A stretch of DNA of 31,888 nucleotides, from positions 1 through 31,888 of IMG/VR virus record IMGVR_UViG_3300035099_000053. One strand, 5' to 3'. Position numbers and translations under genes: made by a program. The DNA is from a virus. Below the pieces are notes generated by a model. It ran no database searches and was not told where the DNA came from. It saw only the letters and a list, made by a program, of their open reading frames with translations. Of this stretch, positions 1,712-21,005 are shown piece by piece (position 1 is the first letter of the stretch; the number at the start of each line of letters is the position of its first letter).

Positions 1712-2066
1712 GTCCTAAAGCCTCCTCATATTCCTTCCAAGGAATTCGCAAATAAGATAATAATAAGCGCTCAACTCCTTCCGCCAATAAATGGGCGTCT
1801 CTGTATGGAGCATCTTTTTCTAATCCAGGCTCATCACTTTGGGGATGATCCATATCAAATTGTGATATTTGTTCTTCTTTAATTCCCTGAGCTTCAGTCA
1901 ATAACTGCTCAATTAAAGCGTGAACAAATATAATCTTTTGAAACAATGGATTCCCAACATCAGCAATTTGAAAATGCAGAGTCTGATCTTTAGATATGTA
2001 CCAATCGTCTAGAGTATCATATCTCATTGCTTCCGGTGAGACTGTCTCAACAATTATTTTCATCAA
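1704..2066 (-). CDS. Conserved phage protein, HxxIE metallopeptidase-like
   Basis: The 120-residue product belongs by pattern to a common phage family of unknown function: N-terminal strand MMKIIVETV, a WYISKDQTLHFQIADVGNP segment, a helix FVHALIEQLL, then APYRDAH and a C-terminal WKEYEEAL. In relatives the helix often reads like HELIE, resembling a degraded zinc-protease motif; here it is HALIE, so catalysis is doubtful. It overlaps the large-terminase stop by four bases, so it is co-translated with it. Confidence 0.6.
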   Translation of the reverse strand: MMKIIVETVSPEAMRYDTLDDWYISKDQTLHFQIADVGNPLFQKIIFVHALIEQLLTEAQGIKEEQISQFDMDHPQSDEPGLEKDAPYRDAHLLAEGVERLLLSYLRIPWKEYEEALGHE

Positions 2067-3433
2067 AAGTAGCCTGTCACTCTATTGTGTCGTTCTGGTG
2101 TTTTTGGAGATATACTAAAATTCGGATGACGATATACAACTGGCAGCATCATCACATAGCGAAGCGCGTCAAGCAAGTGGTCATCACGTTTTAGGATACG
2201 TTCCTTCGGATCTCTTTGATTACGGTTGCGTGCCCAGTCGTCCCAAATACAAGAACGAAACTGACGTTTAATATGAACACAATTTGGACTAATTAATAAA
2301 GTCTTATTCTTTAAAGCTGAATTAATTGTCAGAATACCTGACGATATATCTTTATCGGCATCTGTGCAATATATGCCATGTGGAGTCAATAATTGATCTT
2401 TGATACTTTTACCAGAGGTAGCTTGAGTTGCATTAGCTGATGTATCAATTACCGCAAGATTAGCTCGCCTATGTCCTAATTTTTCTTTGATCAAGGGAGC
2501 GATCTCATCAACTGTTCCAGCCTGAAGAATTTCATCATAAACAATATATTTATTTTCCCGGTTCAAAATAACAAACACAACTCCCCATGGATTGCGATCA
2601 TGAGGATCAATCCCCACTAGGATCATATCATCCATAGTAGGTTTCTTGATTGTTGGTAAAATAGATTCATCGACAAAAGCTGGGAAAACTAAATTACTTC
2701 TTGGAATAAATTCTCCACCCAATGCCGTCTCTAAATTATCTCGCATCGCCGGGTCTCTTTTTACGGCCTCAATTTCTTCGGGAGATATGTGTGGATTCTC
2801 TGATGTTTTAACGTGCCAGTATTCTACCGCAGGTGGCACTGCATCAGGATTATCATATAAATTATAATAAAGCCATGTCAATCCCTGAATAGGAGTACAG
2901 GCAATTATTAATTTCCCGCCGCAATCTATTGTACGCATGAAATTGGACTGGTAAACATCTAAAGGTGGTTCCTCATCCATTACAATTAAGTCACGAGAAA
3001 CTCCTTCAAACTTTTCTAAGTCTTGATCGTAAGATGACATTTGTACAGTAGTCTCGTTCTTCAACTCTAAGATTCGATCCTCAGCCCAATATCTTCGCAC
3101 AACTGGTCCATTATCAAAACTGCCCAAAAAACGCCGGAATAATGGCAGGACAATGCCTTTAATTCCATTTGTAAAATCAACCCCACAATAGCGTATCTTT
3201 AGTGGAGGCTCAGGATACGAAAGATATGGATGAATCCCTAGAGCAGCCCAGCACGTCTCAACAACTGAAGCTAGAGACTTGCCAGAACGCTTGCCACCAA
3301 GCAATAATCTCGTCTTTGCGGTAGACTTATGAAAAGCCAGCATTTTAGAATTGTTAGGTTTATAATTTAACAATTCTTTCAATGCCTCTAAATTCCTCTG
3401 AGTTGTAATATCAAAATTAGAAAAATCTACCAT
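2063..3433 (-). CDS. terL: Terminase large subunit
   Basis: This is the ATP-driven DNA packaging motor and headful or cohesive-end nuclease of the phage. The N-terminal ATPase has a Walker A GGKRSGKS at residues 46-53, a Walker B LIVMDEE at 149-155 and the coupling motif ACTP at 178-181. The C-terminal RNase H-like nuclease shows its three acids at D276 (VGIDPHD), D330 (AVIDTSA) and D417/D418 (RDDHLLDAL). At 456 residues it is a normal length. The start is next to the stop of the permuted NlpC/P60 gene, and the stop overlaps the next start. The small subunit lies about 4 kb upstream in the same operon instead of adjacent. Confidence 0.95.
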   Translation of the reverse strand: MVDFSNFDITTQRNLEALKELLNYKPNNSKMLAFHKSTAKTRLLLGGKRSGKSLASVVETCWAALGIHPYLSYPEPPLKIRYCGVDFTNGIKGIVLPLFRRFLGSFDNGPVVRRYWAEDRILELKNETTVQMSSYDQDLEKFEGVSRDLIVMDEEPPLDVYQSNFMRTIDCGGKLIIACTPIQGLTWLYYNLYDNPDAVPPAVEYWHVKTSENPHISPEEIEAVKRDPAMRDNLETALGGEFIPRSNLVFPAFVDESILPTIKKPTMDDMILVGIDPHDRNPWGVVFVILNRENKYIVYDEILQAGTVDEIAPLIKEKLGHRRANLAVIDTSANATQATSGKSIKDQLLTPHGIYCTDADKDISSGILTINSALKNKTLLISPNCVHIKRQFRSCIWDDWARNRNQRDPKERILKRDDHLLDALRYVMMLPVVYRHPNFSISPKTPERHNRVTGYF

Positions 3434-11009: not shown

Positions 11010-11805
11010 AAAACTCCTTCACCGTCATTTCAATGAATTTATCTATAATGGCTGTATTAGCATTTATTCGTTTGTTAAGCTGAACGCCTTTGGCAGGCGT
11101 CTCAGTAGCCAAAGCATGTCTACAACCTTGATGCATTCTAAAATCTTCATAAGAACCATCACATAGATTAAAGACAATTCCTTCTTTAACGGTTACTGGT
11201 TCTGTTTGGCCATATAGGACTACACTGCTACCATTTGTTACTACTCCGTTACCATCTCCATATCTCGGAAAGAACCTATCTTCTACATCTCTAATAGCCA
11301 GCGCCAATGGACTGGGCTGGGTACCATTTTCATAATCATAAATATAATATTCATTGGCTGTCACATCTTCATGCAAATCCAGGAATCCATCCCGCGATAA
11401 CCTTCTCAATATTACTTCATTAGCCAATAGAATCTGACCTTCCTCTGAAGGAGCATCACCTAATTCGGGATGGCAGAAGCCACAATTAGTCTTTTGATTT
11501 TTATTATTATATCTCTGCCCGATATTAAAACCAACCGGATTTACAACTGGAATAAAAGAAATATCAATATTCGTTGGAATTGATTTTGATTCTAACCATC
11601 GTATAATTGTCAATGGTCCCGCCTTTTCTTCCCCATGAAAACCCGCACATATTAAAATATGTGGCTTACGCTTATCATAAATCATATTAGTCCGGATCAA
11701 CCAAATAGGCAAATCTTCGGCTGTACCTAAAATATAGAGCCATAGATGCTTAATAGGAGCAATCCTTAACAATCTCTTATTAAGAGAGGGAAACAACGCG
11801 CTCAT
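10999..11805 (-). CDS. M14-type zinc carboxypeptidase
   Basis: The 268-residue enzyme has the zinc ligands of the M14/succinylglutamate desuccinylase fold: HGEE with His57 and Glu60, and His145 in FLDLHED. The likely catalytic Glu235 lies in ATETPA. The motif IPVVNPVGFN between them matches the family's substrate region. Such enzymes remove a terminal amino acid or acyl group. In a phage operon with a permuted NlpC/P60 enzyme, a peptidoglycan-peptide cutter (endolysin or virion lysin) is the most natural reading, although no wall-binding domain is present. The start overlaps the upstream stop as ATGA with AAGGAG a few bases ahead. Confidence 0.8.
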   Translation of the reverse strand: MSALFPSLNKRLLRIAPIKHLWLYILGTAEDLPIWLIRTNMIYDKRKPHILICAGFHGEEKAGPLTIIRWLESKSIPTNIDISFIPVVNPVGFNIGQRYNNKNQKTNCGFCHPELGDAPSEEGQILLANEVILRRLSRDGFLDLHEDVTANEYYIYDYENGTQPSPLALAIRDVEDRFFPRYGDGNGVVTNGSSVVLYGQTEPVTVKEGIVFNLCDGSYEDFRMHQGCRHALATETPAKGVQLNKRINANTAIIDKFIEMTVKEFYEN

Positions 11806-13192: not shown

Positions 13193-13207
13193 AATTATCC
13201 CTATATA

Positions 13208-13243
13208 TTATATATACCAAAACTTGGAAATTTGTGACAAATT
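13208..13243 (-). promoter_or_regulatory. Leftward promoter with palindromic operator, copy A
   Basis: On the minus strand TTGTCA (13240-13235) and TATATA (13216-13211) are 18 bases apart; an overlapping TATAAT lies at 13213-13208. The -35 box is inside a near-perfect palindrome AATTTGTGACAAATT. The same arrangement recurs at 26659-26692 and 28264-28293. It should drive the whole leftward operon. Confidence 0.65.
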
Positions 13244-13279
13244 ATTTTATTTATGAAATTTCCCCGAAATCCCCCTCAA

Positions 13280-13303
13280 AATACCCCCCAAGTGACGGAA
13301 TTT
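13280..13303 (+). repeat. 24-base direct repeat, copy 1 (core TGACGGAATT)
   Basis: Bases AATACCCCCCAAGTGACGG followed by AATTT recur at 13359-13382 with one difference (A to G). A related inverted version, TTCCGTCAGGTGGGGG, lies at 27558-27574, directly before the HNH gene. A protein-binding iteron or operator is the likely meaning. Confidence 0.6.
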
Positions 13304-13358
13304 TTACATAGTCTATGAGCCTCTCTCATAAGTTTTATAGGGAACCCCCTGGTTGGGA

Positions 13359-13382
13359 AATACCCCCCAGGTGACGGAATTT
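13359..13382 (+). repeat. 24-base direct repeat, copy 2
   Basis: Second copy of the ACCCCCCA(A/G)GTGACGGAATT repeat, starting 79 bases after the first and in the same orientation. The spacing is between seven and eight helical turns. Confidence 0.6.
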
Positions 13383-13425
13383 CCGCAGGTTTCGTAAGTT
13401 GGGGGGGAAATGACATCTTTGTTTT

Positions 13426-13446
13426 GGTAGGGTAGGGGGTAGGGGG
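13426..13446 (+). other. G-quadruplex-like run
   Basis: Four G tracts of 2, 3, 5 and 5 are separated by TA each time, with a further run of seven G at 13401-13407. The layout could fold as an intramolecular quadruplex on the plus strand; folding itself cannot be shown from sequence. Confidence 0.4.
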
Positions 13447-13551
13447 CTTAATAGTGGTATAGTCTTGTCAGACTTCTCATCTCTCTGTATCCATTTTAAT
13501 ACAGAGATTTGACATTCCTTAAAGGTTTTAAAGACTTAACCCTTGTCTGAC

Positions 13552-13580
13552 TTGACAAAGCCCGCCGTCATGATTATATT
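13552..13580 (+). promoter_or_regulatory. Rightward sigma-70-type promoter P1
   Basis: TTGACA (13552-13557) and TATATT (13575-13580) are separated by 17 bases, an almost ideal promoter. Its -10 surroundings (ATGATTATATTT) are repeated in the second promoter 113 bases downstream. Confidence 0.65.
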
Positions 13581-13604
13581 TCCGTCAAAATTGGATAGGT
13601 TTAA

Positions 13605-13655
13605 AAAGATTTGGCAGATTTAATTGCCATTTCTTTAAAGATTTCGCAGATTTAA
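13605..13655 (+). repeat. Two 19-base repeats between the tandem promoters
   Basis: AAAGATTTGGCAGATTTAA (13605-13623) and AAAGATTTCGCAGATTTAA (13637-13655) differ in one base and are 32 bases apart, about three helical turns. They lie just upstream of promoter P2, a natural place for an activator or repressor pair. Confidence 0.55.
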
Positions 13656-13665
13656 AAGATTTTAC

Positions 13666-13693
13666 TTGACAAATTGAAAAAAATGATTATATT
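13666..13693 (+). promoter_or_regulatory. Rightward sigma-70-type promoter P2
   Basis: TTGACA (13666-13671) and TATATT (13688-13693) are separated by 16 bases, placing a transcription start near 13700. This is immediately upstream of the hairpin-dense block and is the best candidate promoter of the large structured RNA. Confidence 0.65.
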
Positions 13694-13997
13694 TTCGTGC
13701 AAGGAGGTAAAAAGTTGAGAAGATTTTGATGACAGATAGGATGAAGAAGAGGGTTATTTTAGCCTTTTCTTCATTCTCATAACGAGGTTTTAGAATTTGC
13801 ACCTCAAAGCAAGCAGATTGTCGCCGCGTTGCCTTGATATGGCAAGGCAGTTGCGGTGCTGGCACGCTTCAACCCACTACGGGAATTTACGCGTGACTAT
13901 CCAGCATAGACGATGGTAGGATAGTCGTCAAGAAGGGTCCAACATGACCACTGGACATTTAAGCCATACATTACCATCTGGGTCATGACGAGATGGT

Positions 13998-14505
13998 TAT
14001 CATATGGGTTCTCGGATGGAGGCCGGTTAATCCATTCAGACGGAGGTCCAAAAACATGAAAACCATTCGAGTAGTCTACAATGGGATCGAGATGGAGGGG
14101 ACAATTCCCCAAATCTCGAAACTCATCGTTAGCCTTAACCAAAATGCAGTGACCGCACAAAAACCGGCCCCGGCCGCAAGACTTAAAGACAGGAAGGAAT
14201 TGCAGGAAGTCTTTAAGTCTGTCAAGGCGGATAACGCGGAAGACTTCGTCGTTTCCGCGTTAGTAGCCGCGGGTCAACCGATTCATACCGTCTTTAGTGG
14301 TATGAACGAGGTTATCCGTAGCAAATACGGAAAAGACCCGAAAGACGTCATCCGAGTTTCTGTCGATGAAACTGAAACCGGTCATCGCTACATTCGGAAA
14401 GTGACGGTTGGTTCAAGAGAATTGAAAGGCCATTTCAGTAAAGGCGGCCTTACAATTTCTTTGTAAACTTTTCAAACCGGCCTCCATCCGAGGACCTGTA
14501 TGATA
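13998..14505 (+). repeat. 31-bp long-range inverted repeat enclosing an ORF
   Basis: Bases 13998-14028 pair without interruption with 14475-14505: 28 Watson-Crick pairs and three G-U pairs. The inner 18 pairs (left arm CTCGGATGGAGGCCGGTT) are perfect. The enclosed 446 bases contain a ribosome binding site and a 136-codon gene, so the gene occupies the loop of one helix. G-U pairs in place of an exact repeat suggest selection on RNA pairing. Confidence 0.85.
14056..14466 (+). CDS. Unknown protein encoded in a loop of the structured RNA
   Basis: The 136-residue product starts at ATG 14056, nine bases after GGAGG; a longer frame to 13993 would begin inside the helix and is not preferred. It begins MKTIRVVYNGIEMEGTIPQI, a pattern like other small phage proteins, has a Pro/Ala-rich linker near residues 36-42 and ends in GHFSKGGLTISL. 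No family was recognised. The coding sequence is less AT-rich than its neighbours and holds perfect inverted repeats: 12 bp (14179-14190/14209-14220), 10 bp plus 3 (14232-14262), 8 bp (14282-14289/14299-14306), and 6 bp at 14315, 14364 and 14426. It therefore seems to serve as both protein and RNA structure. The alternative is that it is not translated at all. Confidence 0.6.
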   Translation: MKTIRVVYNGIEMEGTIPQISKLIVSLNQNAVTAQKPAPAARLKDRKELQEVFKSVKADNAEDFVVSALVAAGQPIHTVFSGMNEVIRSKYGKDPKDVIRVSVDETETGHRYIRKVTVGSRELKGHFSKGGLTISL

Positions 14506-15122
14506 CAAGGGTAATTGTTTAGGATAGCACTGTATGCTATCCGAACACTTGTTTCTTACCCAGGGCAGAGTACACGTGCAAGTCGTGTAACTATACCCGC
14601 AGTATCTTGCCTCAGGTTTCATGTTACAAGGCAAGATGGGTATAGGTTCAACACTTAGGGACAGGGTTTTGACGTCCCTAAGGTTAAAATGGTAAGAGGC
14701 AAGCGTTCAGCAATAGCCTTAAGTGTGACACTAAACAAGTATCCATACATTCCATGCCAATCTGTAATAGATTGGACGAGAAATTCCTATGTGAATAGGG
14801 ATATTTACATAGAAATTCGGTAGTCTAATCTATAAGCAGACCAGGGCGCGGATGCGCTGGTATAGTGACCGTTCCGCGTTAACAAAAGCGTATTTGGACA
14901 GGGATACTAACTCGGTCTTACGACCGAGCACTATAGAAAAACGTTGACTGTCCTAAGTCGTCCTCCATGAATTCGGAATAGACCGAATAAGGGACTGCTT
15001 CGGGGCGTGAAGCGCGGAAGAAAACCGCGAACGCCGCCCTAAGCTATGTAGTAAAGGCCCAGGGACAGCTATGTCCTGGTTGGGAGATACACTGACTATA
15101 TAGCTTATAAAACCTACTAGCT

Positions 15123-15161
15123 AAAATGGGATGGCTTCATTATTCAAAGCCATCCCATTTT
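15123..15161 (+). terminator. Terminator hairpin ending the structured RNA
   Basis: AAAATGGGATGGCTT (15123-15137) pairs perfectly over 15 bp with 15147-15161, leaving a nine-base loop, and ends in TTTT followed by AATAT. Because the other arm starts with AAAA it could work in both directions. Confidence 0.75.
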
Positions 15162-15165
15162 AATA

Positions 15166-15335
15166 TATGTCCTGGGCATGACAATAAACGGCTTCGCGAT
15201 GGACACATCTCGCGTTAAACTCAAAGTGTCTATATGGGACGGAAGGTAAGGTAGAAGAAAAGAGGAGTGCGATTTCTCTTTCTTTGCCTTACCTTCCAAT
15301 ACCTGAAAAGTTCAAAATGGAAAGAGGTGAGAAAA
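15166..15335 (+). other. Leader region with a long hairpin before the rightward operon
   Basis: No gene or clear promoter is seen here. The main feature is a hairpin at 15241-15297: 11 perfect pairs (GGAAGGTAAGG with 15287-15297) and about ten more inside, with one bulge and a loop of about 11 bases. It ends 38 bases before the first gene and could be an attenuator, a processing site or an mRNA-stabilising stem. Confidence 0.5.
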
Positions 15336-20712: not shown

Positions 20713-21005
20713 TCAATTTGTTCTTCGATGAGAGTGTACCGGTGGAAACTATCAGAAGTATTTATGGCAAATCGCCGGATATCTTTCCTGCGGTTTCCGT
20801 AGACGGTGAAAAGGGTCATTTGCTTATTGCAGTGCCGGCGGAAACAGCAACAGATAAAATGGCAGAAATTGCACAAAAAATGCCAGCAATTCAGGTTACG
20901 GGATTTGATAATGTTTATATCGCCGGCACTACTATTGTTGTAGAAGCCACGTTTCTATCTAAACTAGGGGAGGATAACCATGAAGTTATCAAGCCAGGAG
21001 AATGA
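20694..21005 (+). CDS. 103-residue hypothetical protein
   Basis: GAGGATATGAC precedes ATG 20694. The product reads as alternating strands and a central helix (ETATDKMAEIAQKM), like a small ferredoxin-like fold. No function is visible. Confidence 0.5.
   Translation: MDDQIVINLFFDESVPVETIRSIYGKSPDIFPAVSVDGEKGHLLIAVPAETATDKMAEIAQKMPAIQVTGFDNVYIAGTTIVVEATFLSKLGEDNHEVIKPGE

Follow-up and report, generated by a model that had tools for sequence, protein, structure and literature searches.

A predicted large structured phage RNA that holds an early gene in the loop of a long stem

We consider it fairly probable that positions 13700–15165 of the window, the whole 31,888-base stretch of IMG/VR virus record IMGVR_UViG_3300035099_000053, serve as template for a single early transcript of the phage, which doubles as an mRNA and a large structured RNA with a conserved gene-in-stem. 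The comparison of three phages, made at the level of sequence and predicted pairing, suggests that the gene-in-stem is a conserved trait of this genome position in the phage lineage.

The block lies at the point (about 13200–15300) from which the genes of the window diverge. The leftward genes include the terminase large subunit (2063–3433), a small-subunit-like protein and peptidase-like genes, and the rightward ones encode an SNase, an ATP-grasp protein, a COOH-NH2 ligase, a glutamine amidotransferase, an SNF2 helicase and TnpB. The features of the block and its borders are the following.

13552–13580, plus strand: upstream promoter-like site, TTGACA-17-TATATT, sharing ATGATTATATTTYCGT with the proximal promoter
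13666–13693, plus strand: proximal promoter-like site, TTGACA-16-TATATT, with the start expected near 13700
13700–14055, plus strand: 5′ structured non-coding part, z −5.4
13738–13777, plus strand: 15-bp 5′ hairpin
13811–13816 with 14995–15000, plus strand: long-range helix, pair probability 0.83
13909–13926 with 14946–14962, plus strand: 16-bp helix spanning about 1 kb, p 0.99, closing the central multibranch domain
13998–14028 with 14475–14505, plus strand: 31-bp gene-enclosing stem of 28 Watson-Crick and 3 G-U pairs, no other mismatch
14056–14466, plus strand: nested ORF P0001 (136 amino acids), Shine-Dalgarno GGAGG at 14042–14046, first gene of the rightward operon
14506–15119, plus strand: 3′ structured non-coding part with several branched arms, z −8.7
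15122–15162, plus strand: terminator-like hairpin, 16 bp perfect (15122–15137 with 15147–15162)
15172–15192, plus strand: element CTGGGCATGACAATAAACGGC / CTGGGCATSAYRWWAAACNGC, just 3′ of the terminator-like hairpin

The sigma-70-type promoter of the original prediction is present as the proximal site, to which the upstream site adds a second one; a 16-nt repeat around the −10 is common to both. Upstream of the promoters, a 25-nt direct repeat, AAATACCCCCCARGTGACGGAATTT, occurs at 13279–13303 and 13358–13382, and is possibly an operator. Within 13701–13782, the expected 5′ end of the RNA carries a Shine-Dalgarno sequence, AAGGAGGT, after which tiny overlapping ORFs (TTG 13715, ATG 13729, 17 codons) are found in the first hairpin.

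The minimum free energy of the plus strand of 13700–15165 (1466 bases) is −572.9 kcal/mol, or −0.391 per nucleotide, versus −272 to −454 kcal/mol (−0.186 to −0.310 per nucleotide) on the plus strand of 20 other window tiles of the same length, among which it is by far the best fold. With the ORF cut out, the joined non-coding parts (1009 nt) fold at −400 versus −285 in dinucleotide shuffles (z = −13), a fold excess that bears out the proposed block of about 1.47 kb in which hairpin follows hairpin. The high-probability helices form one connected predicted fold. Inside its multiloop are the 31-bp stem, a branched arm (14509–14744), a second arm (14755–14848) and a UUAC hairpin (14911–14928), and outside is a 12-bp arm (15041–15106). 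The GGGA (GNRA-type) and UUAC loops to which the original prediction had drawn attention are both there, at 14798–14801 on an 11-bp helix and at 14918–14921 on a 7-bp helix, respectively, with pair probabilities of 0.97–1.00. The most striking feature of the block is the 31-bp stem that encloses the ORF, which was absent from that earlier list.

At the 3′ border, a 15-bp terminator had been proposed. A perfect hairpin is indeed present and is 16 bp long with a loop of 9, but it has a weak U tail and was not called by the terminator scan. The element CTGGGCATSAYRWWAAACNGC is found at the 3′ edge of the unit that holds the first early gene: in the window, at about 14290 of L041 (phage G015) and at about 15271 on the minus strand of L240 (phage G020); in 2.8 Mb of sequence scanned, the CTGGGCATGACAATAAACGGC/CTGGGCATSAYRWWAAACNGC element occurs in these three places only, two of them with a hairpin. 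Farther downstream, a 23-nt imperfect inverted repeat (GGAAGGTAAGG.../...CCTTACCTTCC, 15241–15297) lies just 5′ of the P0003 gene (15336–15710).

The sole gene within the 31-bp stem, P0001 (ATG at 14056, stop at 14466), is probably a real gene. Its ORF has the best codon score of the six frames and an elevated GC3 (0.50). The structure of its mRNA has a z score of −5.9 against synonymous shuffles, and 35 tiles of other genes give a mean of −0.8 (sd 1.2, minimum −3.9). P0001 has no match in Pfam, PHROG or NCBIfam and no significant match in the PDB; a candidate paralogue in the window at 20745 was rejected as a chance match.

Two relatives, G020 (102.6 kb) and G023 (112.9 kb), were brought in by a terminase profile search; their terminases are 51–52% identical to that of the window. 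Shared genes map the divergent region of the window to 30.8–39.2 kb of G023 and to the first 21 kb of G020, and a further phage, G025, carries the same locus as G023. In all three phages (the window, G020 and G023), the rightward early operon begins with a gene that a long RNA stem is predicted to enclose in its loop. The equivalent features of the two relatives are the following.

L247:15840–16208, minus strand: ORF P0004 of G023, enclosed by a 33-bp stem (16302–16269/15791–15758), on the strand of the rightward operon
L240:16209–16643, minus strand: ORF P0005 of G020, in a stem of 25 bp plus one mismatch (16699–16674/16194–16169)
L240:16153–16084, minus strand: tRNA-Ile(GAT) of G020, directly after the stem-enclosed P0005 and inside the structured unit

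The P0004 stem unit is followed by a terminator-like hairpin, and its flanks are structured too (z −6.7). In G020, about 800 structured non-coding bases (z −5.1) lie 3′ of P0005 and the tRNA, and the 5′ flank (z 0.3) and ORF (z −0.5) are not unusually structured. A second tRNA of this phage, tRNA-Ala, is located at L240 402–327. The folding statistics of the window, together with the stem kept in both relatives, uphold the proposal of a large structured RNA that encloses a gene.

In single pairwise tests, P0005 aligns with P0001 near IHTVxSGxN (E 1e-4) and with P0004 near HTVY...LNDxLR (E 2e-4). When P0005 is compared to 7,256 ORFs, the two syntenic ORFs take ranks 1 and 3 after P0005 itself, with weak E-values of about 1, and P0001 and P0004 have no direct match to each other (E 1.0). 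The three enclosed proteins are therefore probably, if not provably, members of one diverged family. Structure prediction was too weak both for P0001 (pLDDT 61) and for P0005, run with its alignment (pLDDT 44), and a PDB fold search gave no significant match.

The score of each gene-enclosing stem far exceeds the maximum of 300 dinucleotide shuffles (73.4 vs 44.5 in the window, 59.6 vs 48.5 in G020 and 71.7 vs 44.9 in G023). In comparable phage sequences at GC ≤ 0.55 (4.0 million bases, counted per strand), the stems of the window and G023 rank 1 and 2, and that of G020 about 8th; the others ahead of it are L156, a locus with long inverted repeats rich in AT, and alignments that are longer and contain many mismatches, of which L143 was read and is unremarkable. 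The sequences of the three stems are unrelated, and pairing is kept nonetheless; this suggests that what is preserved in evolution is the fold of the gene-in-stem and not its sequence.

A possible, if on the whole unlikely, alternative is that the transcript is a structured mRNA and nothing more, whose fold controls the translation or stability of P0001 (e.g., if the P0001 protein bound the leader of its message), the RNA having no separate function. P0001 comes first among the early genes and is preceded by a Shine-Dalgarno sequence, and in phages G007 and G015 the first early gene has a structured leader that is conserved, with 89% identity compared to 62% for the protein. Against this, (i) the 650 nt of highly structured RNA that follow the stop codon in the window (z −8.7) are more than a leader needs, (ii) long-range helices span the P0001 gene, and (iii) in G020 about 800 nt and a tRNA come after the gene. 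The loci of the two leaders (L033:17720–18018 in G007 and L041:12966–13257 in G015, z −6.6) had been candidate homologues of the giant RNA and were rejected as such, since they consist of ordinary genes with a structured leader; we keep them as a related locus.

The Rfam scan of the window returned no family at threshold and, at E ≤ 10, just miRNA-like and other sub-threshold matches. The covariance search against the Rfam models of GOLLD, ROOL and OLE was run, and none matches at E ≤ 10 in the cmscan of the window; the GOLLD model has no match in the relatives either, and a separate ROOL search was empty, but the control genomes were silent in it as well. Neither the group II intron D1–D4 and domain V models (E ≤ 10) nor a tRNA search produced a match in the window. 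DNA or protein relatives of the RNA and P0001 were absent from the phages, plasmids, IMG/VR and genome contigs, the collections searched contain no homologue that can be aligned to the body of the RNA (13700–15165), and no equivalent of a giant RNA with a gene in a stem is described in Rfam or the literature searched. Neighboring proteins used as bait yielded one relative at 31% or none. A 15-mer junction pattern gave chance matches only in IMG/VR, and a portal-gene match in L006 was also due to chance.

The suggestion that the RNA is a divergent member of GOLLD or ROOL finds no support in these results: the covariance models give nothing at E ≤ 10, the window lacks a tRNA, although tRNA genes are often close to GOLLD or inside it, and there is no sequence in common. 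Like GOLLD (RF02032), the window RNA is a giant branched phage RNA whose inner segment can hold another gene (a tRNA in GOLLD), and a tRNA-Ile is found within the G020 unit. It differs from GOLLD in carrying a protein gene within a 31-bp stem and in standing at the start of an early operon, and no multimer is known for it as one is for GOLLD. With ROOL (RF03087) it shares large size, a complex fold, a phage origin and what appears to be a transcription unit of its own, but it is more than twice as long and encloses an ORF. GOLLD and ROOL form nanocages, the internal linker of GOLLD can hold tRNAs, and GOLLD expression rises during lysis (PMC12286853). An RNA that assembles in their manner into a multimer or cage, with the gene as an internal linker, would agree with the size, phage location and branched fold of the block and with the tRNA-Ile of G020; given the absence of model matches in the window and relatives and of sequence kinship, we regard it as improbable.

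It is likewise doubtful that the block acts as DNA, i.e., as a hairpin-rich origin or as a packaging or recombination site made of inverted repeats. The z score of the non-coding window RNA is equal on both strands, as a DNA element would have it, and its deviations from pairing are balanced (8 G-U vs 5 A-C, p 0.58), that is, without strand bias. The evidence for a strand hence rests on the gene-enclosing stems. Their deviations in the three phages comprise 9 G-U, one A-A and one T-T but no A-C (on the sense strand, G-U vs A-C gives p = 0.004, with the excess of G-U favored by a stem definition that allowed G-U), and the sense strand scores higher than the opposite one (73.4/60.5 in the window, 71.7/55.3 in G023 and 59.6/51.0 in G020). 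Both observations point to selection on RNA pairing. A DNA element is also at odds with the promoters and hairpin terminator being in register, and with a sense strand of P0001 that folds more strongly than its synonymous shuffles do.

A mobile intron or insertion (a ribozyme of a new type or an inverted-repeat element carrying its ORF) is highly improbable: a structured RNA with an ORF in one of its peripheral loops has the layout of group I and II introns, but the window RNA has no Rfam intron core, exons or interrupted gene, and a probable P0001 relative occupies the same place in the relatives with unrelated flanks.

Other structured loci were met in other phages. A structured RNA of about 430 nt occurs in two more distant ones, G006 (L031:7380–7760, minus strand) and G016 (L049:1600–2030, plus strand), with 62% identity, z scores of −5.5 and −8.4, and both sides changed with pairing kept in 11 of 66 predicted pairs. 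The L031 copy has no Rfam match; as a relative of the window RNA, this real-looking RNA was set aside with no detectable link. The structured region of L259 (about 11130–11760, G026) was rejected as group-I-intron-like, with a homing-endonuclease-like ORF, and appears to interrupt a structural gene of G026 (both by eye). The structured region of L251 is coding.

Returning to the transcript that is both mRNA and structured RNA, we propose the following model. P0001, the only gene of the unit, would be held in the loop of a stem of about 30 bp, with its flanks forming a multibranched body; helices between sequences 1 kb apart would close this body. The long stem may set the coding segment apart from the folded body as a lobe of its own. 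A duplex of about 30 bp is a classic RNase III substrate, and in rRNA precursors the leader-trailer stems let a segment be cut from a folded transcript. The window stem resembles those of the 16S and 23S precursors in being a long, sequence-variable stem that joins the ends of the enclosed segment, and differs from them in that a protein gene is enclosed, the stem is inside a larger structured RNA, and the RNase III site is putative. By analogy, the coding segment could be cut out at this stem, so that one transcript would supply both a message from which P0001 can be translated and a stable structured RNA; the long-range helices may hold the two flanks of the latter together after cleavage. 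Transcription and processing are parts of this model, and the function of the structure could be that of a processing stalk, a scaffold or cage, or a means of expression control.

To our knowledge, the structures of the ornate phage RNAs GOLLD and ROOL have been solved, and their function is not known. A bolder reading, which we think rather unlikely, is that the RNA founds a new class of possibly multimeric giant phage RNAs that display or package their own message, with the layout under selection and complete turnover of sequence. If true, the class would be defined by a folded RNA body with a protein gene in a dedicated stem-lobe. Such a gene-in-stem design would give a genetic handle on ornate RNAs, as gene, stem and body could be altered separately, and the combination of synteny and gene-enclosing stems would offer a way to find such RNAs where sequence and covariance models fail.
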